Assembly: GCF_900167975.1 (NCBI RefSeq)
Contig: NZ_FUZU01000004.1
Coordinates: 186,001-250,000, forward strand
From: Ohtaekwangia koreensis
GTDB lineage: Bacteria > Bacteroidota > Bacteroidia > Cytophagales > Cyclobacteriaceae
Direction of reading: 5' to 3'
Length of the DNA: 64,000 nt
Shown: piece after piece, positions 32,019 through 54,369 of the stretch
How the letters are laid out: the number at the start of each line of letters is the position of its first letter
Position numbering within the stretch: the stretch's first letter is position 1
The notes under the pieces: generated by a model
Told to the model about the DNA's origin: nothing
The model's database searches: none
Seen by the model: the letters and a program-made list of their open reading frames with translations, nothing else
Program-made: the position numbers and the translations under genes

Positions 32019-32987
32019 CTAATACATCGCCCCTACTTTTACATAGTGCGCGTAGAGTTCCTCAACCAGTTCTTGTGTAATAGTTTTTGCTTCTTCCGGA
32101 GATTCAATCTCTACTGTGCTCCCTTGCTGCAATACACCGCGACAAAAATGGCGCAGGTTACCCACCAGAAAATTCATTCTTACTTTATCCCCGAGATCTT
32201 CCTCTGACACCAAGCCGTAATAATGTTTGGCATAGGACATATAACCCGTTACCGGTTTATCAAAAAGTAATTTTACTTCCTGCATATCCTGATTAGAGTG
32301 CTTGAGACTCTGCAGGTATTCTTTCAAGGTATAGCGATTGCGATCATCAAAAGTTGAACCTGTATTTTTCAGATTCATGATGCGGTCTGTTCTGAAATCG
32401 CGGTAGCCATTTCGCAACCTGCACCAGGCTATAAGATGCCAGGCAAAGCTATAGTAGAACAACCCGATAGGCTCAATGATACGCTCCGTGACATCACCTT
32501 GATTGCTGCTATAATCTATGCGTACAACTTGTTTGCTGACGATAGCTTTCTGTATATCTGTCATGAAGTTATCCGGAAATTCATTTTTCTCGGAAGCAAA
32601 CGACTTATACACTTGTATATAGGTCTGTAAATTTTCAAGGTGATCCTTTTCATTGTCATTCAACACAGCTTTGATTTTCATCAGAGCTGATTCAAATGTT
32701 TTCTGGATCGATTTATCCGTCATGCGCTCTACCAGCTTGGACGCTACGAGCATGGCACTGGCTTCTTCCTGTGTGAACATGACGGGAGGAAGATGGAAGC
32801 CATCGACAATGAAGTATCCTTTGCCGGCTTCAGAACCAATCGGAACGCCCGCTTCCATCAAAGCCTTCACATCACGGTAAACAGTTCGGAGACTGATTTC
32901 GAATCGTTCAGCCATTTCTTCTGCCTTTACAACGCGTTTCGTCTGAAGGTGGATTAATATAGCGGTAAGTCGGTCGATACGGTTCAT
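32019..32987 (-). CDS. YafY-type transcriptional regulator with WYL domain
   Basis: A 322-residue regulator. Residues 1-60 form a winged helix (RLTAILIHLQTKRVVKAEEM, then SLRTVYRDVKALMEAG), and residues about 140-215 form a WYL domain (VRIDYSSNQGD, IIEPIGLFYYSFAWHLIAWC, RDFRTDRI). A WCX-like C-terminal extension ends the protein. WYL proteins sense nucleic acids or nucleotides in DNA-damage and phage-defence settings, but many control ordinary metabolism. The gene starts next to the unusual repeat array, which therefore forms its upstream region. No adjacent defence genes are visible. Confidence 0.88.
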   Translation of the reverse strand: MNRIDRLTAILIHLQTKRVVKAEEMAERFEISLRTVYRDVKALMEAGVPIGSEAGKGYFIVDGFHLPPVMFTQEEASAMLVASKLVERMTDKSIQKTFESALMKIKAVLNDNEKDHLENLQTYIQVYKSFASEKNEFPDNFMTDIQKAIVSKQVVRIDYSSNQGDVTERIIEPIGLFYYSFAWHLIAWCRLRNGYRDFRTDRIMNLKNTGSTFDDRNRYTLKEYLQSLKHSNQDMQEVKLLFDKPVTGYMSYAKHYYGLVSEEDLGDKVRMNFLVGNLRHFCRGVLQQGSTVEIESPEEAKTITQELVEELYAHYVKVGAMY

Positions 32988-33127
32988 AGTGTGAAGATAA
33001 GAAGTTATTGTCAGAAGTGGTAGGTTGTTGATGGGATGATTGTTTCAATTTTTACTGGTCAGTGATGTACCCGATAATACAGGTTTTTTATGGGCTCTTT
33101 TTTCGAGTGAGCGATGTTCATAAAGTA

Positions 33128-33375
33128 AGTTGCGTTGGGATTGCTTGCGTTGAATAAAGTTTTCGTTACGGAAATCGGCAGGTTGCTCGAATGGTGGTGC
33201 ATTGATCGCTTGATGCAATTTTGCGCGGGAATGATATAGTTTTTCATAGGAAAATCGCAGGAGCGCAATTAAAAAATTTCAGTGTTCGCAAATCTGCGAT
33301 TCGCGAACCACTGAAATTTTTACTTTATCGACCGCTAGCGGTCGGCAAAGCATGAAGTATATAATTCATTGTAGC
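33128..33375 (+). repeat. Array unit 1
   Basis: Box 33221-33268, closed by TTGCGC and GCGCAA. Hairpin 33273-33320 with AATC-TGC-GATT apex and one bulge plus one mismatch. Palindrome CGACCGCTAGCGGTCG at 33329-33344. The closing pairs of the box differ from units 2 and 3 (TTGCGC instead of ATGCGC) but the partner arm has changed in step. Confidence 0.8.
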
Positions 33376-33628
33376 GAAGCTGACTGAGGATTGCTTATCG
33401 CCGTGAAGAACCATTCTTCTATCGAAGACAGCAAGTTGCTCGAATAGTGGTGCATTGATTGCTTGATCTAATTATGCGCGGGAATGATATAGTTTTTCAT
33501 AGAGAAATCGCAGGCGCGCATTGAAAAAGTTTCAGTGTTCGTAAATCTGCGATTCACGAACTGCTGAAACTTTTACTTTATCGACCGCTAGCGGTCGGCA
33601 AAGCATAAAGTATATAATTCATTGTTAT
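33376..33628 (+). repeat. Array unit 2
   Basis: Box 33474-33521, closed by ATGCGCG and CGCGCAT. Hairpin 33525-33574 with AATC-TGC-GATT apex. Palindrome CGACCGCTAGCGGTCG at 33582-33597. Very close to unit 1; the differences in the hairpin include paired changes (AAATTTCAG to AAGTTTCAG with the matching A-to-G-side change opposite, and TTCGC to TTCGT with GCGAA to ACGAA). Confidence 0.82.
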
Positions 33629-33875
33629 GAAGCTGACTGGGGATTTCTTATCTCCATGAAAAATACGTTCCCTATCGAAGTTGCGCGAATGCAAAAGCAT
33701 TGATGCTCGATATAAATATGCGCGGGAACGATATACTTTTTCATAGACAAATCGCAGGCGCGCATTAAAAAAAATGATTGGTTCGCAAATCGTTGATTTG
33801 CGAACCAATCATTTTTAAGATTTCTTTGACCGCTAGCGGCCAAAAGTGTTAAATGTATATACCTCATAAAGTAAT
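33629..33875 (+). repeat. Array unit 3
   Basis: Box 33718-33765, closed by ATGCGCG and CGCGCAT. Hairpin 33770-33816 is a perfect 22-bp stem with GTT loop; the apical half (GGTTCGCAAATC) resembles unit 1 while the basal half is replaced on both arms. Palindrome 33825-33844 (TTTGACCGCTAGCGG, then CCAAA) with one mismatch. Confidence 0.82.
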
Positions 33876-34125
33876 GAAGCTGACTGGCAATTACTTGTCA
33901 GCAGAAAAACAATATCCCTCCACGAAATAGGTAAGTAAATCGATTTGCCGCATTGATGCTCTGATATACTAGCACTGGGACAATATATTTTTATCGCAGT
34001 CAACATTAAGTATAAGCAAATTACAAATCACTAGTTCTTCAAACCAGAAAATTACGGTTCATCTCTTTGCAGAACGGTGGCGGCCTGCAAGAGGCAAGAG
34101 TATACTCCATAAGTGCTATTTGCGT
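33876..34125 (+). repeat. Array unit 4 (eroded)
   Basis: Keeps GAAGCTGACTGG, GCATTGATGCTC and a trace of the palindrome (CTTTGCAGAACGGTGGCGGCC at 34065-34085, then CTGCAAG). The box stem and long hairpin are lost. An internal stretch (AATCACTAGTTCTTCAAACC) is shared with unit 5 only. Confidence 0.6.
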
Positions 34126-34375
34126 AAGAACTGTTGTCCGTTAGAAACAACTTCTCCTCAACCGAAAATTAGCAAGCTGATCGATGTGTTGACTGCTCGA
34201 TATGCTATACGCAGGGCCAATATATTTTTTACAGCAAATCGAAGGCGCATGTTTACGGCAAGTAAAATTGAAGATCACTAATTCTCCAAACTATAGCGTC
34301 TGTATTTCCGGAAAGATGTCCTTGGAGGATTACAATCTTACCCTAAAAACTTGAGCTTAAAGTATTTTAAAAAAC
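34126..34375 (+). repeat. Array unit 5 (strongly eroded)
   Basis: Recognised by GACTGCTCGATATGCTATACGC at 34191-34212, which aligns with the GCATTGATGCTC region of units 3 and 4, by CAATATATTTTT, and by GATCACTAATTCTCCAAACT shared with unit 4. No hairpin of the core remains. Confidence 0.5.
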
Positions 34376-34560
34376 GTCATATTGCATCTCTTTTGCAGAC
34401 CGCTGGCGGTCTGCAAAAGTATAGGTATCTTCTGTGATGCATGACAATCTTTGATTGTCATGCATCACAGAAGATTACAATGCGCGACTGCGCTATAACT
34501 ATGAAATGGAATATTATCACCGCGCATCGGCTATGCAAAATGATCCGAGCAATCGTCCTC
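34376..34560 (-). repeat. Array unit 6, inverted copy
   Basis: Read on the minus strand it has the same order as units 1-3: box 34527-34480, closed by ATGCGCG and CGCGCAT and again 48 nt long; hairpin 34474-34428, a perfect 22-bp stem with a 3-nt loop and the AATC/GATT apex; palindrome 34419-34390 with 14-bp arms (CTTTTGCAGACCGC). The stem sequence is unrelated to the other copies except at the apex. Confidence 0.8.
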
Positions 34561-34600
34561 GATGAAATAAAACTCATTTTATACAACATCTATATCTTCT

Positions 34601-34684: not shown

Positions 34685-36358
34685 TTACCAGAATACAATA
34701 TATAGCATCGCTAAAATTCCTACTACGATCATAGCACCAACGGCAAACGCACCTTTTGGTTTGAACATGCTCGCATCAACTTCAAGGCCTTTCGGATTTT
34801 TCTTGCTGTTCGGATCCATCAACGTTAATACTACCATGACGAAAACACAGATGAGAAATACAAAACCCATCCGATCGAGGAATGGAATTTCATAGAGACC
34901 TGTTTCAGCGTTCAGCGCAGAGAAGCCCATGCCGCTCAGGAAAGATAAGTCGGTCATCTTTGGCAAGAACTTCAACAGGATTGATAACGGGAACGTAATC
35001 AACGCTGCGGCCATTGCAGCTGCAGAATTCGTACGCTTCCAGAAGAACCCTAAAATAAAGATGGCAAATATACCAGGAGACACGAAGCCGGTATATTCCT
35101 GAATATACTGGAAGCCTCCCTTCTTATCGATGCCCAGGAATGGTGATATAATGATCGCGATGATCATCGCTACTACTACGGCTACACGTCCGATGTATAC
35201 AAGTTGCTTTTCTGAAGCATTAGCGTTGAAGAACTTCTTATATATATCCAGCGTAAAGATGGTAGATATACTGTTTGCTTTCCCCGCAAGGGATGCAACG
35301 ATCGCGGCTGTTAACGCTGCGAACGCAAGCCCTTTTAATCCTACAGGAAGCAAGTTCAACAATACGGGATAAGCACGGTCCGGATTTAATTCACCGTTGG
35401 CAAGCATATCCTGTTGGAACATTCCATCCTGGTATAGAACATAAGCCGCTATACCGGGAAGTACAACGATGATCGGCATCAGCAACTTCAAAAACGCTGC
35501 GAACAAGATACCGTTACGCGCTGTAGGAAGATCAGCTCCCAACGCACGTTGTGTTATATACTGGTTGCAGCCCCAATAGTTCAGGTTTACAATCCACATA
35601 CCACCAATTAAAATCGTAAGACCGGGAAGATCGAGATAACTCGGATTACTCTTATCGAGTACCATGTGAAAATGGTCGTTCGCTTTAGACATCATCAAGT
35701 TGAAGCCCTCTCCTACACCCGTTGTATTGAAATGTTGTGATACCAAATCCATGGCGAGATACGTTGTAGCAAGTCCACCGAGGATCAGGAAGAATACCTG
35801 TATAACATCGGTATACCCGATCACCTTCATTCCACCCAGTGTGATAAAGATTGCAAACACGGCAAGACCGATCATACACGTCCAGAAAGGTATACCGGAT
35901 ACAGTGGTCACGGCAAGTGCCCCAAGATATAGTATAGAAGTAAGATTCACGACTACATATAGCAACAGCCAGAAGATCGCCATGATGGTACTTACTGTCG
36001 GACCATATCGCTGTGTAAGGAACTGCGGCATGGTATAGATCTTATTTTTAAGATAGATCGGCATGAAGAAAATAGCCACGATCATCAGCGTAGCGGCAGC
36101 CATCCACTCGTACGTTGCAATGGCGAGTCCCATTTTAAATCCTGAGCCCGACATTCCGATAAACTGCTCGGCAGATATATTGGAAGCAATCAGCGAAGCA
36201 CCTATCGCCCACCAGGTGAGCGATCCTTCTGCGAGGAAGAAATCTTTAGAATCGGTAGCTGTTTTTTTCTTTTTGTGATAGATCCAGTAGCCATAACCGG
36301 CCACGATGACGAAGTAAATCAGGAAGACTACGTAGTCAACAGTTTGTAATTGTCGCAT
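34685..36358 (-). CDS. Sodium/sugar symporter (SSS family, SGLT-type)
   Basis: A 557-residue inner-membrane carrier with about 14 hydrophobic helices. The N-terminal ASLIASNISAEQFIGMSGSGF, the middle LNYWGCNQYITQRALGA and FAALTAAIVASLAGKANSISTI are typical of sodium/sugar symporters related to the Vibrio galactose carrier. It lies directly downstream of the gal operon but after a terminator, so it has its own promoter in 36359-36510. The neighbourhood suggests galactose, perhaps glucose or arabinose, as substrate. Confidence 0.9.
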   Translation of the reverse strand: MRQLQTVDYVVFLIYFVIVAGYGYWIYHKKKKTATDSKDFFLAEGSLTWWAIGASLIASNISAEQFIGMSGSGFKMGLAIATYEWMAAATLMIVAIFFMPIYLKNKIYTMPQFLTQRYGPTVSTIMAIFWLLLYVVVNLTSILYLGALAVTTVSGIPFWTCMIGLAVFAIFITLGGMKVIGYTDVIQVFFLILGGLATTYLAMDLVSQHFNTTGVGEGFNLMMSKANDHFHMVLDKSNPSYLDLPGLTILIGGMWIVNLNYWGCNQYITQRALGADLPTARNGILFAAFLKLLMPIIVVLPGIAAYVLYQDGMFQQDMLANGELNPDRAYPVLLNLLPVGLKGLAFAALTAAIVASLAGKANSISTIFTLDIYKKFFNANASEKQLVYIGRVAVVVAMIIAIIISPFLGIDKKGGFQYIQEYTGFVSPGIFAIFILGFFWKRTNSAAAMAAALITFPLSILLKFLPKMTDLSFLSGMGFSALNAETGLYEIPFLDRMGFVFLICVFVMVVLTLMDPNSKKNPKGLEVDASMFKPKGAFAVGAMIVVGILAMLYIVFW

Positions 36359-36510
36359 GGTTCAGGAAAATTCAGTTTGGTTTAGCAAAATAATTATAGG
36401 TAAAGCGCACTTCACACGTTCGTTCAATCGATAAAAATGAATGTTCTTTTTGAAACGACAAAATATTTCTTCGTTGTATTCCACATCTGGCAAATTTTTT
36501 AATGACCATC

Positions 36511-36556
36511 GGCAAAAAAGAAGCTGTTCCTGAAATCATATTCAGAAACAGCTTCG
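36511..36556 (-). terminator. Terminator of the galKETM operon
   Basis: Stem GAAGCTGTTCCTGAA (36520-36534) and TTCAGAAACAGCTTC (36541-36555), one mismatch. On the minus strand it is followed by TTTTTTGCC, so it ends the gal operon 25 bases after the galM stop. Confidence 0.87.
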
Positions 36557-36580
36557 CTTTTATTCTTAATACACAATCAA

Positions 36581-37747
36581 TTACTTGGTCGAGAATTTAT
36601 AGGTAGTCTGCGTGGAGTATGTCTCCCCCGGGTTCAGTACTACGCTGGGGAAAGCAGGTTTGTTTGGTGAATCCGGATAGTGCTCAGTCTCGAGGCAAAG
36701 TCCATAACGATGCTTATACTGTACTCCGCCTTTTCCGGTAAGAGAGCCATCCAGGAAATTTCCGGAATAAAACTGGATCCCTGGTTCGGAGGTATATACT
36801 TCCAGGTAGCGACCGGATGTAGGCTCATATACACTGGCAGCAAGCTTCACGCTGTCGCTTGATGAAAGCACCCAGCAATGGTCATAGCCAAGGCCTAATT
36901 CAAGTTGTTGATCTTTATCATTGATTCTCGCTCCGATTACAGTTTCATTTCTGAAATCAAAAGGTGTGTTGGTCACGTCCGTTAATTCCCCGGTAGGGAT
37001 CAATACTTTATCTACTGGTACAAGTTTATCGGCATGCAAGGTGAGTTTATGCTCGAGGATGTCACGCTTTGCATTTCCCGTAAGGTTGAAATAAGAATGT
37101 TGTGTAAGATTAACGATCGTCTTCTTATCTGTGGTGGCTTTATATTCGATCTTCCACTCGTTGTTGTCGGTGAGTATATATAGGACTTCAACGTTCAGGT
37201 TACCGGGATAACCTTCTTCCATATCTTTACTGAGATAGGTAAGTTTAAGCGCTACACCTTCCGTGGATGGTGCTTCTTCTATATTCCAGAATACTTTATC
37301 AAAGCCTTTCAATCCTCCGTGAAGATGCTGGCCATTGTTATTCTGTGCAAGGGTATATTCTTTACCATCGAGTTTGAATTTACCTTTGCCGATACGGTTT
37401 CCATAGCGTCCTACAACGGCTCCGAAATATGGAGCAGGGGTAAGATAGCCGGCTAATGAATCAAAGCCGAGCACGATGTCTTCCAATGTACCATTCTTAT
37501 CAGGTGCTTTCAGTGAGGTAACAATAGCACCGTAGTTGATCACTTGTAATTCGATGCCGTTCTTATTCTTTAGTGTATATACACTCACCTCTTGTCCATC
37601 GGGTAACTTTCCGAACGAAGCTTTGGTAACAGAGGCTTTCGCAACGGCTACGGTATCGGCCGCTGGAGTTTGTATTTCTTCTTTCTTTTTACAGGCTTGT
37701 GACATAATTACACTTACGAATAAGGTATAGATAATAAGCTTTCGCAT
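36581..37747 (-). CDS. galM: Aldose 1-epimerase (mutarotase), probable lipoprotein
   Basis: A 388-residue beta-sandwich enzyme that interconverts alpha and beta galactose. Marks are GRYGNRIGKGKF, the His of NGQHLHGGLKGFDK, TQHSYFNLTGNA, and the final catalytic region LCLETEHYPDSPNKPAFPS. The N-terminus MRKLIIYTLFVSVIMSQAC is a lipoprotein-type signal with cleavage before Cys19, so this copy should act in the envelope, before uptake, unlike the other three Leloir enzymes. It is the last gene of the operon, 4 bases after galT. Confidence 0.93.
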   Translation of the reverse strand: MRKLIIYTLFVSVIMSQACKKKEEIQTPAADTVAVAKASVTKASFGKLPDGQEVSVYTLKNKNGIELQVINYGAIVTSLKAPDKNGTLEDIVLGFDSLAGYLTPAPYFGAVVGRYGNRIGKGKFKLDGKEYTLAQNNNGQHLHGGLKGFDKVFWNIEEAPSTEGVALKLTYLSKDMEEGYPGNLNVEVLYILTDNNEWKIEYKATTDKKTIVNLTQHSYFNLTGNAKRDILEHKLTLHADKLVPVDKVLIPTGELTDVTNTPFDFRNETVIGARINDKDQQLELGLGYDHCWVLSSSDSVKLAASVYEPTSGRYLEVYTSEPGIQFYSGNFLDGSLTGKGGVQYKHRYGLCLETEHYPDSPNKPAFPSVVLNPGETYSTQTTYKFSTK

Positions 37748-37751
37748 AAAC

Positions 37752-38822
37752 TTAGGGGTTTGGTATCTCAGAAACTACTCGATTTTTGAAATGAATATCA
37801 GAAAGTGAACGCAGGCGATCGGCGCTGAATTCTGGGGTAATGTCTCTTTGCGGATTGGCCAGCATTTCATATCCCACCATAAATTTCTTCACGGTGGCAG
37901 ATCGCAACAACGGAGGATAAAACACCATGTGCCAATGCCATTCGGCATGCGCTTCACCATCGCTGGGTGCCTGATGTATACCTGCTGAATATGGGAACGA
38001 CACTTCAAACAGGTTATCGTAACGTGCAGCCATTCTGCGATAGGCATCTGCAAAAGTATCGCGCTCCGCTTCAGTCATGTCCGTGATGCGGGCCATAGCA
38101 CGCTTCGGAATGATCATGGTTTCGAAAGGCCATATTGCCCAGAAGGGAACGACTACAGCAAAGTGATCATTCTCGAAAACAATACGCTCTTTATATTTCA
38201 ACTCCAGATTCCAATAATCCGAAAGTATAGTAGTGCCTTTACGTTTGAAGTATTCAAACTGGTGCTGCTGCTTTTTAGCAGGCTCTACAGGTATAGATTG
38301 CTGTGCCCAGATTTGTCCGTGCGGGTGCGGATTGGAACATCCCATCACGGCACCTTTATTTTCAAAGATCTGGATATACTCGATGTTCTTGTTTTTGCTG
38401 AGCGTGGTATACTCTTCAATCCACAGGTCTACAACGCTACGGATACCGGCCGTATCCATTTCGGCTACCGTGAGATCATGACGAGGTGAGAAACAAATAA
38501 CGCGGCAGACTCCTGCTTCACTTTTCGCTATGAGTAATTCGCTGTCGCGGAATTCACCTGTTGGAACATCATCCACCAATGCAGCGAAGTCATTTGTAAA
38601 CGCATAGGTCGAAGTATAGGCAGGATTCACTTCTCCGTTCGCCCGCACGTTGCCGGGACAGAGGTAGCACGTTGGATCGAATGCGACCAGCGTCTGCGTA
38701 CCCGTCTTCTCAACCTGGCCTTGCCACGGCCGCTTCGAACGGTGTGGTGAAACCTGAATCCACTCTCCGGTCAACGGATTATAGCGTCTATGGGAATGAT
38801 CCTTTAAATCAAACTGCGTCAT
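37752..38822 (-). CDS. galT: Galactose-1-phosphate uridylyltransferase
   Basis: A 356-residue HIT-superfamily enzyme that swaps UMP between UDP-glucose and galactose 1-phosphate. The active-site motif is NPHPHGQIW, with the nucleophilic His at about 168. Zinc ligands are CYLC (52-55) plus the later His. The second half repeats the fold with HQAPSDGEAHAEWHWHMVF. The start ATG and length are normal. It lies between galE (73 bases) and galM (4 bases). Confidence 0.95.
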   Translation of the reverse strand: MTQFDLKDHSHRRYNPLTGEWIQVSPHRSKRPWQGQVEKTGTQTLVAFDPTCYLCPGNVRANGEVNPAYTSTYAFTNDFAALVDDVPTGEFRDSELLIAKSEAGVCRVICFSPRHDLTVAEMDTAGIRSVVDLWIEEYTTLSKNKNIEYIQIFENKGAVMGCSNPHPHGQIWAQQSIPVEPAKKQQHQFEYFKRKGTTILSDYWNLELKYKERIVFENDHFAVVVPFWAIWPFETMIIPKRAMARITDMTEAERDTFADAYRRMAARYDNLFEVSFPYSAGIHQAPSDGEAHAEWHWHMVFYPPLLRSATVKKFMVGYEMLANPQRDITPEFSADRLRSLSDIHFKNRVVSEIPNP

Positions 38823-38895
38823 CGTTCTTCAGATATATACTTTAAAAATCCATTTCACAAGTGCATCCAGAGAGCACCTGCATCCATGGAGGTAT

Positions 38896-39924
38896 TTATA
38901 CTTTTGCAGCAAGTTTCTGCTGCCACTGCCAGGCTGAGCGCATCATCTCTTCAACGCCAAGTTTGGTCTCCCATCCCAGTTCTTTATTCGCCAGTGTAGT
39001 ATCTGCATAGATCTTCTCTACATCGCCCGCTCTGCGATCTACAACTTTATAGTTTAGCTTGAGATTGTTTACTTTCTCAAACACCTGGATGAGTTGCAAT
39101 ACTGTTAAGCCTTTGCCCGTGCCGAGGTTAAAGAACTCGTAATTACTTTTTTGTTTCTTATCGATCAGCCTCTTCAACGCGATAACGTGGGCAACAGCAA
39201 GATCAACCACATGTATATAGTCGCGCATAGCTGATCCATCGGGAGTATCATAATCTTTACCGAACACCATTAACTGCTGACGTATACCGGCAGCGGTTTG
39301 TGTAATGAACGGAACGAGGTTTGCCGGAACACCATTTGGCAATTCACCGATCAGTGCAGATTCATGTGCACCTACGGGATTAAAATACCGCAGGGATATA
39401 GCCTGTATATCTTTGTTTACGCGGCAGGTGTCGCGAAGTATTTCTTCTCCGATCTGCTTGGTATTTCCATAAGGAGATTCAGCAGGCTTAAAGGGTGTTG
39501 CTTCAGTTACCGGAAGCTTATCCGGCTGACCATATACTGTGCATGAAGATGAAAATACGATGTTTGGAATTTGATACTTCTTCATCGCTTCGAGCAACAA
39601 CACAAGGGAGAGCACATTGTTCTTATAGTATAACAACGGCTTCTCTACCGATTCACCAACAGCTTTGCTGGCTGCGAAGTGAATGATCGAGTCTATGTCT
39701 TTATTTTTTTCGAAGAAGGCGGTGAGTTTTGCTTCATCACAAAGATTGAATTCGACAAACTCAGGACGTACTCCGGAGATCTTTTCAATGCCGTTCAATA
39801 CGTCTGCCTGTGAATTGGAAAGGTCATCGATGATGATTACATCGAAGCCGTTCTTAATAAGTTCTACTGCGGTGTGAGAGCCGATGTATCCCGTGCCACC
39901 GGTTACTAATACTTTTTTTTTCAT
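38896..39924 (-). CDS. galE: UDP-glucose 4-epimerase
   Basis: A 342-residue short-chain dehydrogenase-type enzyme that interconverts UDP-galactose and UDP-glucose. NAD binding is through GGTGYIGSH at residues 9-17. The catalytic group is SSSCTVYG with Tyr152 and Lys156 in SPYGNTKQ. The gene starts 3 bases after the galK stop, so translation is coupled. Confidence 0.95.
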   Translation of the reverse strand: MKKKVLVTGGTGYIGSHTAVELIKNGFDVIIIDDLSNSQADVLNGIEKISGVRPEFVEFNLCDEAKLTAFFEKNKDIDSIIHFAASKAVGESVEKPLLYYKNNVLSLVLLLEAMKKYQIPNIVFSSSCTVYGQPDKLPVTEATPFKPAESPYGNTKQIGEEILRDTCRVNKDIQAISLRYFNPVGAHESALIGELPNGVPANLVPFITQTAAGIRQQLMVFGKDYDTPDGSAMRDYIHVVDLAVAHVIALKRLIDKKQKSNYEFFNLGTGKGLTVLQLIQVFEKVNNLKLNYKVVDRRAGDVEKIYADTTLANKELGWETKLGVEEMMRSAWQWQQKLAAKV

Positions 39925-39927
39925 GCC

Positions 39928-41112
39928 CTAATGTAAAGTAATTTTCTCGATTGACTTGCTAACGCTGGTGCCATCTTTAATATTAACGATATAGGTTTCC
40001 ATGGCAATGCCGAAGCGGTCAGCGTATGCTTGCCTTACTGTGGACAGGAATGAACCGACTTCTTCTTTCTTTACCAGGTTGATGGTGCAGCCACCAAATC
40101 CTCCGCCCATTACACGCGCACCCCATACTCCTGAAAAAGCTTTCGCCTGTTCCACCAGGAAGTCCAGCTCGGGACAACTTACTTCATATAGTTTCGATAA
40201 TCCTTCGTGTGTCTCAAACATCTTTTCTCCGAAGGCTTTCAGATCATGACGCTCGAGGTCCTGACTCGCCAGCTGTACACGCGCGATCTCTTGCACTACA
40301 TATAGGCAACGATCAAATACTTTTCCTTTCAACTCATCTTTATGCTTGCGCACCATGTCTTCCGTTGCATCGCGCAAGCTGTTAATAGCAGGATAATATT
40401 TTTTAAGTATCGCTACACCTTGCTCGCATTCATTTCTGCGTGTGTTATACTCGGAGTCAACCAGGGAGTGCTTTACTTTTGAATCGCATAGTACAATGGT
40501 AAAGTCTTTTAGCTCCAGAGGTGAGTAGCGGTATTCAAGCGAACGGCAGTCGAGCAGGATCACGTGATTTTCAGAACCCATCATGGAAGCAAACTGATCC
40601 ATGATGCCACACTTCACGCCTACGAAATTATGCTCCGACCACTGCGCTATTTTTATAAGCTCTTTCTTGTCGATGGCATGATGATTCAATTCATTCAACG
40701 CAAAAGCAAATCCACATTCAACAGAAGCGGATGACGACAAACCTGCACCCATGGGTATATTTCCACCAAACACACAACGGAATGGTTTCAATGTATACCC
40801 TTTATCTACAAACTGACGGATAACGCCCAGTAAATAATTCGCCCAGGCCGGAGCCTTCACAGGCTGTGGGTTATTCAGATCTACAGAATAATGTTGATTA
40901 TATTTGATGGAGTATATCTCTGACTTTCCATCGGTTGATTCGCTGATCGCAAAAACTGTTTCGCGGTCTATAGCCGCAGGCATTACGAAGCCATCATTGT
41001 AATCGGTGTGCTCGCCTATCAAGTTGATGCGTCCCGGTGAGCGAACTACCAGCGGCTCTTTCTGGTATAGTTCTTTGAACTTGCTCTGTACATCCTGCAC
41101 GGTCAATTCCAC
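39928..41112 (-). CDS. galK: Galactokinase
   Basis: A 394-residue GHMP kinase that phosphorylates alpha-galactose at C1. Signature 1 is PGRINLIGEHTDYNDGF, the ATP loop is NIPMGAGLSSSASVE, the catalytic Asp lies in CGIMDQFAS, and motif 3 is GARVMGGGFGGCT. It is the first gene of the gal operon. Its 160-bp leader contains a perfect hairpin and, further upstream, a perfect LacI-type operator palindrome. Confidence 0.96.
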   Translation of the reverse strand: MELTVQDVQSKFKELYQKEPLVVRSPGRINLIGEHTDYNDGFVMPAAIDRETVFAISESTDGKSEIYSIKYNQHYSVDLNNPQPVKAPAWANYLLGVIRQFVDKGYTLKPFRCVFGGNIPMGAGLSSSASVECGFAFALNELNHHAIDKKELIKIAQWSEHNFVGVKCGIMDQFASMMGSENHVILLDCRSLEYRYSPLELKDFTIVLCDSKVKHSLVDSEYNTRRNECEQGVAILKKYYPAINSLRDATEDMVRKHKDELKGKVFDRCLYVVQEIARVQLASQDLERHDLKAFGEKMFETHEGLSKLYEVSCPELDFLVEQAKAFSGVWGARVMGGGFGGCTINLVKKEEVGSFLSTVRQAYADRFGIAMETYIVNIKDGTSVSKSIEKITLH

Positions 41113-41378: not shown

Positions 41379-42485
41379 CTATTTTCCGGTGAGCTTCTTG
41401 ATCAATGCTACTTCTTCCTTGCTGTAGGGTGTACCATCTTTACGGAAGATATCATGGAACCATACCTTCGGCTCTTTACCATCCGCCATCGGTGTGTCCC
41501 ACGCATAAATCGTATTGGTTTTACCCGCTACCAATCCCCAGTTATAGGCCCCTATATTTTCTTCCTTCAACATGGGAAGCACATTGTCAAAACGACTGTT
41601 GCGTGTACGCGCCATATACTCTGTGCAGATTAATGGACGGCCAGTGGTACGCAAGCTATCGATCCATTTTTTATGCTCTTGTGGTTCAGCGTAATTGTGA
41701 TAGGTTGTAACATCTGAGTTGTCAAGCTGATAATGATTCAGATCAACGAGATCTTTATTCCAGACGCCAACCGATAAGGGCTGTGAAGGATTTACTTCCC
41801 TCCCCCACTGGAACGCTTTTTTCAACAGCCGCATTGACTTGTTACCATAACCGGAGTTACCGGGTTCGTTGTATAGATCCCACAACACAATGCGCTTATC
41901 ATTTGCAAAATGGGAGAGTATATCTTTCGTATACCGCCCCAGCGTAATATATAGTGTTGAATCTTCATGAATTTTATCCCCAGGATCGCGTACCCAGCCC
42001 GAGTTGTGAATGCCGGGTTTAGGGTCTGGTTGTTTGCCTGCCTTATAGGTTGGATTCCAGCAATCATCAAACAGAACAAACAATGTAGAGATCTTATGCT
42101 TGTCTGCGATGTTGAGGTATTCATTTACTCTGTTCTTGAATCCGGTGGAGTCTACCTCCCAGGCAAGGTGATGTAAGTATACACGCATGGAATTAAAACC
42201 GATCGACTCAGCCCAGCCCAATTCGCGGTTTATAGTAGCGGTATCAAAAGATTCAGCTTGCCACATTTCAAGTTGATTGATCGCGGTACTCGGAATGAAG
42301 TCACTGCCCCGCAGCCAGCCCCATTGCTTATACCATTCATTGGCTTGCTCTTTCGACCATATCTCCCTTACAGCAGGTACCGGTACCGTTGTATCCTTCT
42401 CCTGAACGGTCTCCTTTCGTTGACATCCCGCGAACATCATTGCACTGACAGCTACTGCCAGCAGTAGTTTACTGATTTGTTTCAT
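41379..42485 (-). CDS. GH5-like (clan GH-A) glycoside hydrolase, lipoprotein
   Basis: A 368-residue enzyme. The signal MKQISKLLLAVAVSAMMFAGC has a good lipobox, so it is probably anchored in the envelope. The barrel carries a clan GH-A acid/base Glu in WDLYNEPGN and a candidate nucleophile in ICTEYMARTR, with SMRVYLHHLAWEVDS as an early strand. Relatives in Bacteroidota are often named cellulase or 1,4-beta-xylanase, but the exact substrate is unproven. Its place between arabinofuranosidase-type enzymes and the gal operon suggests a galactan, arabinogalactan or xylan-type backbone. Confidence 0.83.
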   Translation of the reverse strand: MKQISKLLLAVAVSAMMFAGCQRKETVQEKDTTVPVPAVREIWSKEQANEWYKQWGWLRGSDFIPSTAINQLEMWQAESFDTATINRELGWAESIGFNSMRVYLHHLAWEVDSTGFKNRVNEYLNIADKHKISTLFVLFDDCWNPTYKAGKQPDPKPGIHNSGWVRDPGDKIHEDSTLYITLGRYTKDILSHFANDKRIVLWDLYNEPGNSGYGNKSMRLLKKAFQWGREVNPSQPLSVGVWNKDLVDLNHYQLDNSDVTTYHNYAEPQEHKKWIDSLRTTGRPLICTEYMARTRNSRFDNVLPMLKEENIGAYNWGLVAGKTNTIYAWDTPMADGKEPKVWFHDIFRKDGTPYSKEEVALIKKLTGK

Positions 42486-42487
42486 AG

Positions 42488-42646
42488 TTATTTAGTATTG
42501 ATTTTCTTTCTGATAATAGGAACTGGTTTGGATTGTATACCCGGACTTTGTGTTTCGATGAAAGGCCAGCCGTCTTTATACTGCAGCCGGTCAACGCGTA
42601 CAACAGCTAGGTCAGCAAAATCCAATTGAAAAACATTATTACACAT
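42488..42646 (-). pseudogene. Remnant of a glycoside hydrolase C-terminus
   Basis: A 52-codon frame in the gap between the GH43 and GH5-like genes, from an ATG at 42646 to a TAA at 42490. The segment ADLAVVRVDRLQYKDGWPFI, followed by a Pro-rich end, reads like the last strand and tail of a GH43-type enzyme (compare VDRL...GWP endings in that family). No upstream part of such a gene exists in frame; an in-frame stop lies four codons before the ATG. The best reading is a leftover of a deleted or recombined GH43 gene. A tiny expressed protein is less likely. Confidence 0.55.
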
Positions 42647-42672
42647 ATATATAATTTACTATACGGCATATA

Positions 42673-43722
42673 CTATTTCTTGTCAGAGGGTATAGCAAGC
42701 ACAGCTCCTTCACGTACGGGTATACCGAAGTTTGGTGTGCCATCCGGATTCCAGGTGAATTTCTGCGCACGCGGAGAACGATGCTTACCACAACCTTGTC
42801 CCGGTTCTGAATTTGCGTGATATAAAATCCAATCTTCCTTTCCATCCGGAGATTTAAAAAAGGAATTATGCCCGGGGGCATATACTTTGTTTTCAGAAGA
42901 TTCTTTGAATACAGGCTGCAGAGATTTCTTCCACGAAGCTGCATTCAGTAAATTACTATTGGCAGAAGCAGTAAGCATACCCAGAGCGTAGAAATCTGTC
43001 CAGCAACCGCTCGCAGAGTATATAATGTATAGTTTATCTTTATTTTTCAGCAACTGTGGGCCTTCGTTAACATCAACATGCGGTGGGTTATTCGGATCAT
43101 TCAGGTCTCCGTGTCGTTCCCAATCATGTTCCGGATGTGAAATCATAACACGCTTCCCTTCTATAGTCCACGGATTTTTAAGCTTCGCTATATATAAGTC
43201 CTGCCTTCCGTTGGTGTCGCCCTCCCACCCCGACCAAGTCAAATAGAGTTGCCCGTTGTGCTCAAAGACAGAACCATCAATGGCCCATTTATCAGAGGGG
43301 TCTGAAATCCTTCCTTTGAAGGTCCACGTTCCTTTGAGAGGGTCCGGTGAAGCATTCTCCAACACGTATAGTCGGTGATTGTCATTTTTACCATCATCCG
43401 CAGCAAAGTATACATACCATTTCCCTTGCAGGAAATGAATTTCGGGTGCCCAGATTTCTTTTGAATATAACGTGTCTGCAGGAGGTATCCAGATTGTTTT
43501 ACGCTCTGCCGTTTTGAGATCAGCAAGGTTTTTAGTCCTCCAGATGTCAATGCGATTCCCCAGGGTATTGGTATAATAGTAATATCCATCTTTATATATA
43601 CTCCATGGATCTGCTCCGGATGGTAGCAACGGATTGGTAAACGTTGACTGCGCAAAGCCTGTAACGGTTAACAGCACCAAACAAAAAGATATATACATTC
43701 TCATCATAGCAACTCTATTCAT
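42673..43722 (-). CDS. GH43 family glycoside hydrolase (copy 1)
   Basis: A secreted five-bladed-propeller enzyme of about 349 residues. Signal peptide ends TVTGFAQ. Catalytic acids are the Asp in SGADPWSIYKDG (base), the Asp in WAIDGSVFEH (modulator) and the Glu in VNEGPQLL (acid). GH43 members act mostly on alpha-L-arabinofuranosides or beta-xylosides. The ATG at 43722 is preferred over an in-frame TTG at 43737 that would overlap the preceding gene; MMRMYISF a few codons on is another option. Downstream of the GH172 gene and similar to the other two GH43 enzymes here, especially copy 2. Confidence 0.9.
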   Translation of the reverse strand: MNRVAMMRMYISFCLVLLTVTGFAQSTFTNPLLPSGADPWSIYKDGYYYYTNTLGNRIDIWRTKNLADLKTAERKTIWIPPADTLYSKEIWAPEIHFLQGKWYVYFAADDGKNDNHRLYVLENASPDPLKGTWTFKGRISDPSDKWAIDGSVFEHNGQLYLTWSGWEGDTNGRQDLYIAKLKNPWTIEGKRVMISHPEHDWERHGDLNDPNNPPHVDVNEGPQLLKNKDKLYIIYSASGCWTDFYALGMLTASANSNLLNAASWKKSLQPVFKESSENKVYAPGHNSFFKSPDGKEDWILYHANSEPGQGCGKHRSPRAQKFTWNPDGTPNFGIPVREGAVLAIPSDKK

Positions 43723-43733
43723 TTGTAAAAGTA

Positions 43734-44882
43734 TCAATTAACTTCGAGGTCATTTTTTACCGGAAGCTTGGGAAATGACGCATGCGGTTCAGCCTGATAC
43801 CAGAACACGACCGAACTTATATCGGATTGCTGTGGTAAATATCTCCCTTCACTGCGCCATCCTAAATCCTGTATAGTAATCTTCAACTCTTTTTCAAAAC
43901 GCACGGGGTCTATAATATGCCAACGATACATTCCAAAACGCTGTTGCGAAGTATATACTCCATCAGGTCGTATTACCTGGTGTAGCCCCGCATAAGCCGT
44001 TGAGAATTCCTGGTATTGGTGCGTCTTTTTGTTTTCAAAATTATAGGAGCCACAGAAGTAATCTTCCGTACCCGTACCGTTGATAGTCGGAAACTTTGAA
44101 TCACCATCCATATAGAATTTGATTTCACCCTCACCCCACCAACCGTTGTTATTTACACCCCACGCTATATACGTACCAACATACTGTCCTTTGCCTTTGA
44201 TACCATCTACCAAAGTATAGATCGATCCTTTCGTAGGATTGCTTCTTCTGAACTGTGCATGAAAGTAGGCGGCATCCGCAGGGACATCTGTCAATGTATA
44301 GTCTATCTGGTAATATAGGCGCATCTTTTCGGTTGCTATATTTTCCATGGTAATCCTGCATTTCTTCCGGAACGGCATTACCCAGTAACAATTGAAAGCG
44401 CTGCCCGGATTAACTGTAATCGCCAATGAATTCAGCGTTGCAAATTCGCCCCATCCCATACCAAAAAAATCTCCGACAGGGACTTCGATGGATGGCTCTT
44501 TTTCATCATCCCAATAAAACCGTAAAACAGAATAGCGCCAGTTGCCGGTGGGCGTCATCCAGATGTGTTGTATAGCACCTGAACCGTTGATCTCTGCAAG
44601 TGTAAAAGTCTGGCCGGGTTCGATGACTATAAATGGATTTACTTTCCAGCCTTGTCCCAATTCGCGCGCCTCATGACCTGCGCTTCCTTTTTCCGGTAAC
44701 GTCATTCCGCCTTTGCCGGGCTCACCGGTAAAATTCTCTGGACTAATCGAACGTGTCTTTGCATCCGACAACCGGTATAGGTTGCCGAGGTTCATGTGGA
44801 GTCCATCAAACGATTCGGATTTCTGCGCATAGGCCGACCGTATGAGTCCTATAGCAACAAAAAGAAAAATGATATACTTCAT
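43734..44882 (-). CDS. GH172 family (DUF2961) enzyme
   Basis: A 382-residue secreted protein with signal peptide MKYIIFLFVAIGLIRSAYAQ. The DUF2961 fold (now GH172) is shown by GAIQHIWMT near residue 105, SVLRFYWDDEKEPSIEVPVGDFFG, and the acid-rich GTGTEDYFCGSYNF near 270. Characterised GH172 members are D-fructofuranosidases or D-arabinofuranosidases that work as trimers. Here it sits between GH43 genes, which suggests removal of an unusual furanose side group. It is 17 bases from GH43 copy 2 and 11 bases from copy 1. Confidence 0.88.
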   Translation of the reverse strand: MKYIIFLFVAIGLIRSAYAQKSESFDGLHMNLGNLYRLSDAKTRSISPENFTGEPGKGGMTLPEKGSAGHEARELGQGWKVNPFIVIEPGQTFTLAEINGSGAIQHIWMTPTGNWRYSVLRFYWDDEKEPSIEVPVGDFFGMGWGEFATLNSLAITVNPGSAFNCYWVMPFRKKCRITMENIATEKMRLYYQIDYTLTDVPADAAYFHAQFRRSNPTKGSIYTLVDGIKGKGQYVGTYIAWGVNNNGWWGEGEIKFYMDGDSKFPTINGTGTEDYFCGSYNFENKKTHQYQEFSTAYAGLHQVIRPDGVYTSQQRFGMYRWHIIDPVRFEKELKITIQDLGWRSEGRYLPQQSDISSVVFWYQAEPHASFPKLPVKNDLEVN

Positions 44883-44899
44883 GACTATGTTGTTTAAGT

Positions 44900-45901
44900 T
44901 TATTTAGCAGCAGAAGGCGCGGGTTGCAGGGAATCTGTTTTTACCGGTATCCCAAAATCAGGTATACCATTTTCTTTCCAGTGAAATTGTTGCATGCGTG
45001 GTGATCTGCGATGATCACATCCCTGACCCGGACCTGTATTGGCATGATACAAAATCCAGTGCTCTTTTCCATCCGGTGATGTGAAGAATGAATTGTGACC
45101 CGGTGCAAATACATTATTCTCGGGCGACTGTTTGAACACTGGTTGTGTCGATTTTATCCACGAAGATGGATTCAGAAGATCAGATGCTTCATCTGCCGTG
45201 AGCATGCCCAGAGAATATTCATCAGCCCAACAAGCGCTCGCGGAATATATAATGAATACCTGCTTCTGATGATGAGTGAGAAACTGCGGTCCTTCCAGGA
45301 TTTCGCGACCACCGAATTTCTCCCATGCTTGTGTCGGCTTTGCAATCACGATCTGTTGATCAGCCAGTGTCCATGGATTTTTCATTCGGGAAATTACCAA
45401 TGCGCTTTGTGGCCCTATATACGCAGAGTATATAAAGTAGCGTTGGCCCCGGTGCTCAAATACAGAACCATCCAATCCGGAATATACAGTATTAACTTTT
45501 CCCTTATCGATCCATGTTCCGCTTAATGGGTCAGCAGATTTATTCTCCAGCACAAATATATACCGTGAGGCATCGCCAGCGTTGTTGACATCGGTAGCTG
45601 TATAGTATAGGTACCATTTGCCGTCCAGGAAATGTAATTCAGGTGCCCAGATAGCTTTTGAATTAGGACCTTTCGATGGTGGTGTCCAAACGGTTTTAGG
45701 AGCAACGTCCCGAAGATCCTGGAGCGCTTTGGTCTTCCATAGGTTAATCTTCGTACCTACCGTATGAGTATAGTAATAGAATCCATCCTTATAGATAACC
45801 CATGGATCGGCCCCGGAAGGAAGTAATGGATTTTTAAATTCAGCCTGCCCAAACGAGCTAATGCTTAGCAGAATAAAAAAGGACAGTATGCTATATTTCA
45901 T
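44900..45901 (-). CDS. GH43 family glycoside hydrolase (copy 2)
   Basis: A 333-residue secreted enzyme with signal peptide ending ISSFGQ. Catalytic Asp in SGADPWVIYKDG, Asp in GLDGSVFEH and Glu in LEGPQFL are intact. It shares the start (NPLLPSGADPW), the middle (WAPELHFLDGKWYLYY) and the end (APGHNSFFTSPDGKEHWILY) with copy 1, so the two are recent paralogues. It overlaps the end of copy 3 by 4 bases (ATGA), a sign of coupled translation. Confidence 0.9.
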   Translation of the reverse strand: MKYSILSFFILLSISSFGQAEFKNPLLPSGADPWVIYKDGFYYYTHTVGTKINLWKTKALQDLRDVAPKTVWTPPSKGPNSKAIWAPELHFLDGKWYLYYTATDVNNAGDASRYIFVLENKSADPLSGTWIDKGKVNTVYSGLDGSVFEHRGQRYFIYSAYIGPQSALVISRMKNPWTLADQQIVIAKPTQAWEKFGGREILEGPQFLTHHQKQVFIIYSASACWADEYSLGMLTADEASDLLNPSSWIKSTQPVFKQSPENNVFAPGHNSFFTSPDGKEHWILYHANTGPGQGCDHRRSPRMQQFHWKENGIPDFGIPVKTDSLQPAPSAAK

Positions 45902-47643
45902 TTTTCGATCATCACTTTCATGGTAAATTCTTTTTGATTCGTTCGCACCTTCAACAGGTATATACCACCAGGGATGTTACTGGTATCTATAACAGACTCA
46001 TCTTCTGTATCGATAATCTGTTCATGATATACCGTTCTGGACAACAGGTCTGTTAACATCACTTCGCGCAGTATGAAAGAATGCTTTTTCTCTATGACCA
46101 GAGAGCCCCTGACAGGATTCGGGTATACGAACACAGATTCCGCTATATTTTCCTCGGAGTCTGTTACTATTTCGTCAGAAGCTATAATATACCAGCGTTG
46201 TCCATCGGCAGCGGACCAGTCTTGTTGCAAAACATTAGCGCCTTCGGCAGTAGAATTCGTCACTACCGTTAACGCCTTGTTACTGTTGCGCGCCAGTAGA
46301 CGATACGAGCCATCGCCTGCGTCTTCTATTTTCCATTGCTGGCAGGGAGCACCATTGGGTGCCCAGGTTTGTACATTGGCGAAATTATCATTTGAGCAAC
46401 CGGCTACATCCAATGCCAATCCACCTTGCAGCGATGTCAAAACAAAAAAGCCATCGCCCGTTGCCTGCACATTCCAGCGCTGACAACGCTTACCGAACCA
46501 GCTGTTTTGAATTACATCTGCACCAAGTCCTGCCGAGCATCCTGCAATGTCCAGCACCTTTGTACTGGCTTTGGAGACAAACCTATATATACCATTCGGC
46601 AGTGTTACAGATATAGGTACATCGATTTCTCCTGTAGGGGCGGCAAGTGTATCGCCTGCTGTTACCGGCACTCCAAAATCGGGTGTTCCATCAGGCTTCC
46701 ATTCAACCTTTTGTGCTCGGGTTGTGCGCGTGAAATTACATGCGCCTGCCGCTACCGTTGTGGCATGGTATACATTCCATATCTCTGTCCCATCCGGTGA
46801 TGAGAAGAAACCATTGTGCCCGGGACCATATGCATTCGCGGAAGCACGGGTACTGAAAACAGGCTGCGCGGATTTTGTCCACGAAGCTATATTCATCGGG
46901 TTGTCAGCTTCGTTCATCGTTAACATGCCAAGCGCATAGTCCGGGGTCCAGCAGCCACTCGCAGAATACACCAGGAACACTTTGCCATTTTGCTTCATTA
47001 CCACAGGGCCTTCATTTACTTCACCATTTCGCTCCCAGCTATAGTCCGGACTCGATAATAACACGCGTGGCCCGGTCAACGTCCAGGGGTTACTCATTTC
47101 AGCTATGTATATACGCTGTATGGTGTTAGACTCATTGCTATATCCTGACCACAAGAAATAATTTTTATTATTCAGCGATAGAATCGAACCGTCAATCGCC
47201 CAAAAGTCTTCAGTAGGATGAAATATTTGCCCCTTGTTAGTCCAGGTGCCTGTTATCGGATCATCGGATGAGTTCTCAATTACCCAGGTGCGTTGTGAAG
47301 CAAGGTTTGTGTTTGTTCCACCGGTATAGTATATATACCATTTGTTACCGATGCGATGCAATTCAGGTGCCCAGAAATTACAACACGGTCCACCTGAAGC
47401 AACTGTGAAGACCACAACACCGGCTGCAAATTTTAATGCATTGAGTGTTGCTGCCTTTTTTACGGTGATGTTATTGCCGGTCGTCCCGGTCAGGTAGTAA
47501 CTACCGTTATAGTATGTGATGTGCGGATCTGCCAGGTCTGCTATAGGGTTGGAGAATGTCTGTGCCAAGCTTGCCGTTTTCAGTACAAGTATCATCAGCA
47601 CCGTTATCAACAATCGCACCCTGAGTATATATCTTTGTATCAT
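45898..47643 (-). CDS. GH43 enzyme with ricin-type lectin and type IX sorting domains (copy 3)
   Basis: A 581-residue multidomain protein. Signal peptide ends ASLAQ. The GH43 propeller spans about 28-340 with Asp in DLADPHITYY, Asp in WAIDGSILS and Glu in VNEGPVVM. A ricin B-type lectin (CBM13-like) spans about 355-490, with three QxW repeats (CQRWNVQ, CQQWKIE, GQRWYII). The last ~80 residues form a type A sorting domain (VYPNPVRGSLVIE and GGIYLLKV). It should be secreted by the type IX system and bind its substrate through the lectin, so it is probably the extracellular member of the GH43 set. Confidence 0.9.
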   Translation of the reverse strand: MIQRYILRVRLLITVLMILVLKTASLAQTFSNPIADLADPHITYYNGSYYLTGTTGNNITVKKAATLNALKFAAGVVVFTVASGGPCCNFWAPELHRIGNKWYIYYTGGTNTNLASQRTWVIENSSDDPITGTWTNKGQIFHPTEDFWAIDGSILSLNNKNYFLWSGYSNESNTIQRIYIAEMSNPWTLTGPRVLLSSPDYSWERNGEVNEGPVVMKQNGKVFLVYSASGCWTPDYALGMLTMNEADNPMNIASWTKSAQPVFSTRASANAYGPGHNGFFSSPDGTEIWNVYHATTVAAGACNFTRTTRAQKVEWKPDGTPDFGVPVTAGDTLAAPTGEIDVPISVTLPNGIYRFVSKASTKVLDIAGCSAGLGADVIQNSWFGKRCQRWNVQATGDGFFVLTSLQGGLALDVAGCSNDNFANVQTWAPNGAPCQQWKIEDAGDGSYRLLARNSNKALTVVTNSTAEGANVLQQDWSAADGQRWYIIASDEIVTDSEENIAESVFVYPNPVRGSLVIEKKHSFILREVMLTDLLSRTVYHEQIIDTEDESVIDTSNIPGGIYLLKVRTNQKEFTMKVMIEK

Positions 47644-47644
47644 G

Positions 47645-49408: not shown

Positions 49409-49474
49409 AAAGATTAGCAAAGTAAATGAAGACGAAAGAGAAGCACGATCTATAGTGTGCTTCCCTTCAATCCA

Positions 49475-51007: not shown

Positions 51008-51025
51008 AGCCGTTGCATTCAGGAA

Positions 51026-54000: not shown

Positions 54001-54328
54001 TGTTGATGCGCTTGAATTCGATAGATGCTTGTGCAGAAAGATCTTCCAGCACCTGCCGAAGCGAAACATTTTTATAGTGCAAGTCGAATGATTTATCGAC
54101 CGATCCCAACTGTGCGGAGTACGCGAACACGAATCGTGTTTTCTCTTCCAACGCTTTAAACACAGTGGTAAGCGAAGCGTCATCCAGCGAAAGCGAGACT
54201 TTTACCTTGTCCAGGCTCTGGCTGTTGGTGGACGCTGCAAAGCCCAGATTCATACAAATTACCTGTATGATAAAAAGGCGCAATGTGTACTTCGATATAA
54301 GCATGAACAGCTTACGTAAAAATTTCAT
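51026..54328 (-). CDS. SusC/RagA TonB-dependent transporter with STN domain
   Basis: A 1100-residue outer-membrane transporter. After a signal sequence (about 1-32) comes a STN domain (about 45-115), which contacts the FecR antisigma factor. Then come a carboxypeptidase-like beta-sandwich (about 127-205; GVNILEKGTANGTSSDANG), the plug (about 215-330; RGGGQPGSEAQVQIRG) and a 22-strand barrel that ends in SLGLQFTF. It imports oligosaccharide with TonB energy together with SusD. The STN domain, with the sigma/FecR pair upstream, indicates substrate-induced transcription. Confidence 0.95.
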   Translation of the reverse strand: MKFLRKLFMLISKYTLRLFIIQVICMNLGFAASTNSQSLDKVKVSLSLDDASLTTVFKALEEKTRFVFAYSAQLGSVDKSFDLHYKNVSLRQVLEDLSAQASIEFKRINKTISVTTKEARIVKAVQVAIPIRGTIKDEAGDPLPGVNILEKGTANGTSSDANGEFTMQVQDENSVLVFSFIGYTSQEVTVGSQTSLSIQLIQDVTTMQEIVVIGYGEQEKKDLTGAVSIVDSKAVQQRQATTIAEAMQGLATGVNIRGGGQPGSEAQVQIRGLKSFNGANPLYVIDGLVSTANRDFNPNDIESIQILKDASAAAIYGSRAANGVIIITTKKGKEGPMKVEFSGKTGVQTIPRYDLAGTEEFARLNYMAYDNAGKTRQNLDLSVDTDWQDETFQTGSIQDYNLSFSGGGKNGSYLVSGNYFSNKGTVISTAFERLSFRVNTQASKGIFSIGENIAISNAKADEMSGNPILDVVRLLPTIPVYDASHPGGYGYGDEAKARTFGTNPIAIADLEDRTNENFRVRGNVWSELKLRPYLKYRINLGYETSSDNYRYLRKVGNWTLNQPADPSIANENRARSYMALVENTLTFDKEFGKHSLNILAGQTFQKDNYGQIWGTKRNLISNSSGAYYSVLDAGVTDPQAGGYANTTVLLSYLGRLTYDYDDKYLFSAVVRRDGSSRLSKANRWDSYPSISAAWRISQENFFQVSWISDLKIRANYGTLGSSNIGPYDFQPVVNTFSSVAFGNDQHTETGATQVKLVNTDLKWETVTQKNFGIDGAFLNDKVSVTAEYYISDTKDVLTQMPIAMTTGNDGGNPVVNAASLQNKGFEFSVTYRESARPLNYFVTANLTTINNKVKNLGYGRTDIYVGNTRTEIGQPIGMWYVLETDGLFQNLEEVQNYRNSTGTVIQPDAKPGDIRFKDTDDNGTINNEDKVVVGSPWPDIELGLNLGASYKGIEFTMTWFGSYGAKIFNGPRSVMDRFDDNSNYRAGIQPWTEENPNTDVPRALYASTLNSRGDIDRWLESGSFTRLKFVSIAYTLPTELISKIGIESAKVSISGQNLLTFTKYKGLDPEFNGPTIYEKGYDFGVFPNVRTVSLGLQFTF

Positions 54329-54369
54329 AGGTTTGTTATGGTTTGAGTTTTATCACTAATTCTCAGGCT

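Follow-up and report, generated by a model that had tools for sequence, protein, structure and literature searches.

Intergenic repeat families of the ERIC, RU and SPRITE type generally retain recognisable stem sequence between their copies. ERIC/RU-1, RU-2/YPAL, RU-3, NEMIS and SPRITE/BOX/RUP are short, intergenic, present at multiple loci and able to form stem-loops; BOX, RUP and SPRITE occur bunched together, RU-2 carries internal inverted repeats, and RU-3, which has kept part of its sequence, has probably ceased to move (PMC2229807 and PMC10969869). REP/BIME elements, associated with RAYT transposases, are likewise extragenic palindromic units. In mitochondria, the double hairpin elements of Allomyces, yeast and sponges consist of neighbouring hairpins, occur in tandem and show complementary substitutions between some of their copies, and flanking duplications are noted as lacking for the Allomyces elements (portions of PMC2800124, citing Paquin et al. 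2000). Additionally, hairpins can be maintained by template switching, which leaves as footprints several compensatory changes at once and inverted loops when relatives are compared; the cases described in PMC8794818 are known RNA genes.

Here, we describe an array of structured repeats in Ohtaekwangia koreensis (genome G000), located within a window of 64,000 nucleotides, which is the whole stretch of DNA analysed. One element of about 250 bp consists of a stem-closed box of about 48 nt followed by a long hairpin with nearly perfect pairing; most loci also have a second palindrome. In contrast to the ERIC, RU and SPRITE families, its arms have a different sequence in each copy, whereas the box and apex are kept, and neither shared termini nor target duplications were recognised. 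The mitochondrial elements, which we compared by description, are organellar and shorter, with stems conserved in sponges, whereas the present element lies on a bacterial chromosome and carries a stem-closed box of 48 nt (same portions of PMC2800124). Unlike the reported template-switch cases, it involves no known RNA gene. In its behaviour the family resembles both bacterial intergenic repeats (ERIC, RU, SPRITE) and mitochondrial double hairpin elements; we assign it to neither group, as a conserved stem sequence is lacking and neither termini nor target duplications were recognised. Our literature searches returned no description of or name for such a family. On balance, we lean towards the view that the array is a copy, amplified in tandem and in part decayed, of a small, non-coding, hairpin-forming intergenic element whose family is lineage-specific and present at no fewer than five loci.

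The array spans 33.1-34.56 kb of the window, upstream of a WYL-type regulator gene and downstream of an SGLT-type symporter gene, and no credible gene was seen between the two (Table 1). Repeat finding, a 253-bp period picked up by TRF and reading of the open reading frames bear out the first-pass annotation, which had described structured repeats of about 250 bp in a gene-less gap. Its count of five direct units and one inverted unit holds in part: u1-u3, at spacings of 253 and 244-245, and the inverted u6 stand, while u4 and u5 (about 33921-34420) are degraded, with both the closed box and the long hairpin absent. A weak match to the covariance model R1 lies in u5 (34207-34418, E 1.1e-4). 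The segment 34475-34527 is inverted and 75% complementary to 33474-33526, the u2 box. The fixed geometry with variable sequence claimed for four copies was also recovered in u1, u2, u3 and u6, each of which has a box of exactly 48 nt, 3-4 nt, a hairpin of 47-50 nt, 1-8 nt and then the outer edge of a palindrome. The palindromes that follow the hairpins are of the GACCGCTAGCGGTC type; the palindrome GACCGCNNGCGGTC has three sites in G000, every one inside the array.

Table 1. Positions of the array units, their parts, the bordering genes and the five loci (window positions unless a genome and contig are given; G000, O. koreensis; G006, its sister species)
Feature	Position	Strand	Remark
WYL-type regulator gene	32019-32987	-	borders array; judged by eye
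SGLT-type symporter gene	34685-36358	-	borders array; judged by eye
Unit 1 (u1)	33171..33423	+	direct repeat family shared with u2
Unit 2 (u2)	33424..33676	+	86% identity to u1 over 253 nt
Unit 3 (u3)	33677..33920	+	112-nt core at 77%; 73% over about 230 nt of u2
Unit 4 (u4)	33921..34170	+	degenerate; palindrome decayed, without long hairpin
Unit 5 (u5)	34171..34420	+	degenerate; retains 30-nt palindrome common to u6
Unit 6 (u6)	34390..34562	-	inverted repeat; outer edge 34562 placed by eye
u1 box, 48 nt	33221..33268	+	complementary ends; one G-A mismatch at seventh pair
u2 box, 48 nt	33474..33521	+	
u3 box, 48 nt	33718..33765	+	
u6 box, 48 nt	34480..34527	-	
u1 long hairpin	33272..33321	+	bulge or mismatch present
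u2 long hairpin	33525..33574	+	bulge or mismatch present
u3 long hairpin	33770..33816	+	22 bp perfect arms, loop 3
u6 long hairpin	34427..34475	-	23 bp perfect, loop 3; arm sequence unlike other units
u1 second palindrome	33323..33350	.	
u2 second palindrome	33576..33603	.	
u3 second palindrome	33825..33844	.	
Second palindrome common to u5 and u6	34390..34419	.	apex inverted in sister species G006
Locus 1	window array (G000) / G006:C46:604k		
Locus 2	G000:C2:106394 / G006:C64:103552		
Locus 3	G000:C3:564702 / G006:C46:943541		
Locus 4	G000:C6:151437 / G006:C73		G006 partner located by flank DNA
Locus 5	G000:C5:69255 / G006:C74:73216		G006 partner placed from C74 and flank DNA

The two perfect hairpins stand out within the window. 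A hairpin scan, which allowed loops of 2-8 nt and a single mismatch and required arms of at least 13, returned the perfect hairpins of u3 and u6 as the longest in the 64 kb, the other eight having arms of 13-17, and the same scan of three Markov-simulated sequences found 0, 0 and 1. RNA folds of the four cores (u1, u2, u3 and u6) were each better than all 200 shuffles on either strand, with z between -3.8 and -11.4, u1 and u2 being entered minus their first five box bases. A search of the window against Rfam (release 15) yielded nothing at the gathering score; at a permissive E-value, six loci drew 16 matches, all below the gathering score and mostly of the microRNA hairpin type.

A DNA search of G000 gave significant matches confined to the array. 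Covariance models extended the family to at least five loci, namely the array and four single-copy relatives. R1, built from u1 and u2 only, recovers u3 (E 5.8e-26) and u6 (E 8.5e-17) despite the dissimilar arms of the u6 hairpin, and among 98 genomes it also matches G000:C2:106394 and G006:C46:943.5k. The broader models R2 and R3 add loci 3, 4 and 5 of G000 together with their G006 partners, the G000 copy of locus 5 going undetected by R2; R3 was derived from alignment A11, in which four partial matches to the reverse strand of these hairpins accompany the 12 full copies, and their inclusion loosens the hairpin part of the model. All five loci found in G000 are also occupied at orthologous places in G006.

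The loci found by R1 are built like the array units: the box reads GCGCGGG...AGG-CCGYGC, the hairpin of 23-24 bp has arms of its own sequence, and the second palindrome is shorter. At locus 5, a second palindrome is not clear by eye. The box can be aligned across loci, the arms are dissimilar between loci, and outside the box and apex the copies differ almost completely. At locus 3 (L145 1501-1640, against window 33272-33350), the two apex types are swapped relative to the window units: the long hairpin carries the GATCGC type and the second palindrome the GCAAATC-TGC-GATTTGC type, the reverse of the array.

One could suppose that the dispersed copies are unrelated ordinary terminators of similar look and that the array is a separate tandem duplication, since long hairpins without a box do lie near gene ends in G000 and its relatives (L211, L213, L132 and L134). 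The box already disfavours this reading, which we consider very unlikely: it aligns between loci, GCGCGG occurs in 0 of 18 weak matches that were read, and R3 separates full copies (67-95 bits) from weak matches outside the family (20-30 bits), with even the hairpin-less G006 copy of u6 scoring 45.5 bits.

The hairpin arms vary in a concerted manner. MAFFT alignments A1, A2, A3, A7 and A9 misplaced the hairpin arms of u6 or of u1 and u2, and A8 and model-fitted alignments were used. In A10, a model-fitted alignment of ten copies from which the E-value cut excluded both locus 5 copies, 95.8% of cells are paired overall and 97.2% in the hairpin, and changes on both sides occur at 19 of the 22 hairpin pairs, as compared with 1 of 7 pairs of the box stem. 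The hairpin covariation score was 0.806 in the structure-fitted alignment, versus 0.229 for shuffled and at most 0.138 for slid alignments; four of five covariation measures exceeded all 500 shuffles and the fifth all but 2. The hairpin is visible by eye in every alignment row. The kind of covariance-model check proposed at first pass found copies beyond the window at four G000 loci, and the hairpin arms covary strongly.

Close pairs of copies reveal the changes more directly. Between u1 and u2, 12 of 130 core positions differ; six of the 12 make up three compensated pairs, one turns a pair into a wobble, one breaks pair 7/42 in u1, and the remainder are unpaired. Between orthologs, as judged by eye, locus 2 shows two adjacent double changes, one wobble and one paired deletion, and locus 3 shows one flipped base pair; the apex is altered at both. 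One-arm deletions and single apex changes are seen in u3 and at locus 5. The apex of the second palindrome is inverted at locus 4 (TTT/AAA), as is the apex of u6 (CTGG/CCAG), again by eye, while the apices of loci 2, 3, 5 and u3 are changed and not inverted. These clustered paired changes and two inverted apices are of the kind that PMC8794818 attributes to template switching, and they fit such mutation as well as RNA selection, although two apex inversions of 2-4 nt each could be chance.

The first-pass annotation had suggested selection on a folded RNA or DNA; for RNA, such selection is one possible reading of these data. In the G006 array, u2 is missing, as are the box and hairpin of u1 and the u6 hairpin, and one arm is gone at locus 4. 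The G006 sequence is a metagenome assembly, so these hairpin losses could partly be assembly faults, yet taken as they stand they would speak against strong selection for the fold. The matching of the arms reads as owed, at least in part, to one arm templating the other.

The box behaves differently from the hairpin. Six boxes (loci 2, 3, 4, 5, u3 and u6) were compared between G000 and G006, those of u1 and u2 being excluded, since G006 has them only truncated or not at all. The six contain no gap event, whereas 16 fall within the 50 nt that precede them (Fisher p 1e-5). Passive drift would not predict indel-free boxes in six ortholog comparisons, which counts against our preferred reading. 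The main rival to our preferred reading starts from this observation: a functional structured small RNA family, in which the box is a conserved domain and the hairpin an intrinsic terminator that is free to vary as long as it pairs. We regard it as a real possibility, albeit one with clearly less than an even chance. Box substitutions are fewer than expected from four-fold sites of six neighbouring genes in the same two genomes (140 of 1053 differ, 13.3%; binomial p 0.0096), but their rate does not differ from that of the upstream 50 nt (25/289 versus 31/269, p 0.26), and the low count of loci 2-4 (3/145) concerns a subset chosen after the fact, locus 5 and u3 differing at 10/48 and 8/48. All eight aligned boxes share GCGC-GG on the 5' side, with AGG-CGCGC less strict on the 3' side, but the box interior has no consensus fold across them, and the damaged u1 and u2 boxes of G006 lie outside the count. 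Between 32900 and 34700, terminator-like sites are in excess (6 observed versus 1.4 expected), which favours the small RNA reading, but promoter-like sites are not (7 versus 5.4). Judged from these alignments, box length seems to be kept and constraint on box sequence is uncertain.

A small peptide or type I toxin encoded in the box was considered and rejected. The array units have a common short frame within the box, which in u2 and u3 reads MRGNDIVFHREIAGAH and a near copy of it; in a comparison of u1, u2, u3 and u6, loci 2-5 of G000 and loci 2, 3 and 5 of G006, the reading frame and its product were different at loci 2-5.

The known distribution of the family is narrow. R1 at E<=0.01 matched 2 of 98 genomes, G000 and G006, with up to 35 candidates scored per genome. 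With about 106-108 candidates scored per genome, R2 matched 14 of 38 relatives at E<=1, with only G000 and G006 below 0.01, and in an order-level sample 3 of 38 genomes at E<=0.01, namely G000 and two marginal matches (0.0025 and 0.0097) that we rejected as box-less hairpins when read. At the same depth, R3 matched 7 of 38 relatives at E<=1; those below 0.01 were G000, G006 and G007, and the G007 match, a hairpin without a box, was likewise rejected. In a phylum sample with ten candidates scored per genome, R3 at E<=1e-4 matched 1 of 395 genomes, G000 itself. The genome samples overlap, and with limited candidates scored in each, diverged copies may be missed. In the genomes sampled, G000 and G006 are the only ones with convincing members at this depth. 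Distant blastn with u2 gave no match in phage and plasmid collections, nor did one exact box pattern in viral contigs.

Among the weak matches, L132, L133, L134, L211 and L213 were rejected as members, the box being absent by eye, as were eighteen further ones, two of them overlapping, on the same ground. Two of these places in G000 carry long near-perfect box-less hairpins (L211 1531-1580 and L213 1501-1549), and the L211 apex (GGATC..GATCC) is similar to that of locus 2. A box-less long hairpin also lies by an apparent thyA-type gene in G005, G002 and G006 (L132, L134 and L159, about 1501-1605) and is matched weakly by R2.

Related genomes provide sites at which the element is absent. At locus 1, the orthologous regions of G002 (L026), Dawidia soli (G004, L027) and UBA5867 (G005, L031) contain short intergenic DNA and lack the array; at loci 4 and 5, G002 and G005 carry about 50-100 nt in place of the element. 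R3 at E<=0.1 gave no match in these seven regions, which cover loci 1, 4 and 5. The flanks of filled and empty sites are too diverged for the edges of the insert to be placed. Between G000 and G006 no insertion difference was seen, and since the five found loci are all shared, mobility would be historical at best.

A short, non-coding, intergenic and dispersed element that is absent from relatives at three tested loci recalls a classical MITE, for which the transposase of an insertion sequence would act in trans on terminal inverted repeats. We consider this improbable: no terminal inverted repeats, target duplications or mobiliser were recognised, there is little likeness between copies outside the box and apex, and both carrier species have all five found loci in common. 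The inverted repeats detected are internal, and the empty-site alignments do not define the element ends. Mobilisation by a RAYT (Y1) transposase, as for REP/BIME elements, would suit extragenic palindromes of which one copy, u6, is inverted, and the first-pass annotation had raised this link. It is hardly credible here: PF01797 (Y1_Tnp), although present in 6 of 7 genus genomes, has no match in G000, and its single match in G006 lies on C95, where no element was found. Moreover, the hairpin sequence is not conserved between copies, and GACCGCNNGCGGTC is limited to its array sites.

The four single copies of G000 all lie in gaps of 260-433 nt between convergent genes. Their neighbours, named from reading translations, are a hybrid sensor kinase and a VanW-like gene; a small gene and an outer-membrane surface-antigen-like gene; an S41-type peptidase and a nuclease-like gene; and RmuC-like and redoxin-like genes. 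If the element has a function, stopping transcription or protecting 3' ends between convergent genes is the most plausible one. A separate terminator-like hairpin (by eye) already follows the upstream gene ahead of the element at loci 3 and 4, and thus a terminator role of the element is unneeded there; several of the hairpins are also without a clear T-tract.

We propose that a lineage-specific hairpin family arose at these places as follows. The element would have spread in the common ancestor of G000 and G006 by a route that we leave unspecified, and its copies in the window would have multiplied through unequal recombination. During replication, one hairpin arm may template the repair of the other, so that changes are copied across; such templated copying would preserve pairing between the arms despite drift in their sequence, with an occasional inversion of the apex. 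A hairpin between convergent genes would be tolerated, and would probably stop transcription from both directions or stabilise 3' ends, which is the weakest step of the scheme. A bolder version is that an indel-free folded box joined to a long hairpin, continually rewritten in both arms by hairpin-templated synthesis, constitutes an undescribed class of bacterial element; we hold this to be rather unlikely. In this version, similarly doubtful, the element would be a module of RNA or DNA that is young within Cytophagales and passes on its structure but not its sequence.

If the hairpin-templating account is right, twelve related full copies and the sister-species orthologs would make it possible to separate template-switch stem rewriting from selection on an RNA fold. 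Confusing the two touches covariation-based searches for non-coding RNA, and the present family would serve as a warning that even very strong covariation need not imply a functional RNA. The list of repeat families would likewise grow by one for which our searches gave no name.

The remaining genes of the window were named by eye, without HMM. Next to the WYL-type regulator, a galactose-type cluster (34685-41112) comprises the SGLT-like symporter, an aldose epimerase, galT, galE and galK, and the gene order is identical in G006. It is followed at 41379-56119 by a polysaccharide-utilisation-like run with glycoside hydrolases, a SusD/SusC-like pair and anti-sigma and sigma genes. At the other side of the window, a 15/45-bp tandem repeat (8057-8303, inside the open reading frame 7840-8514) encodes a low-complexity protein region rich in K, D, Q and E.
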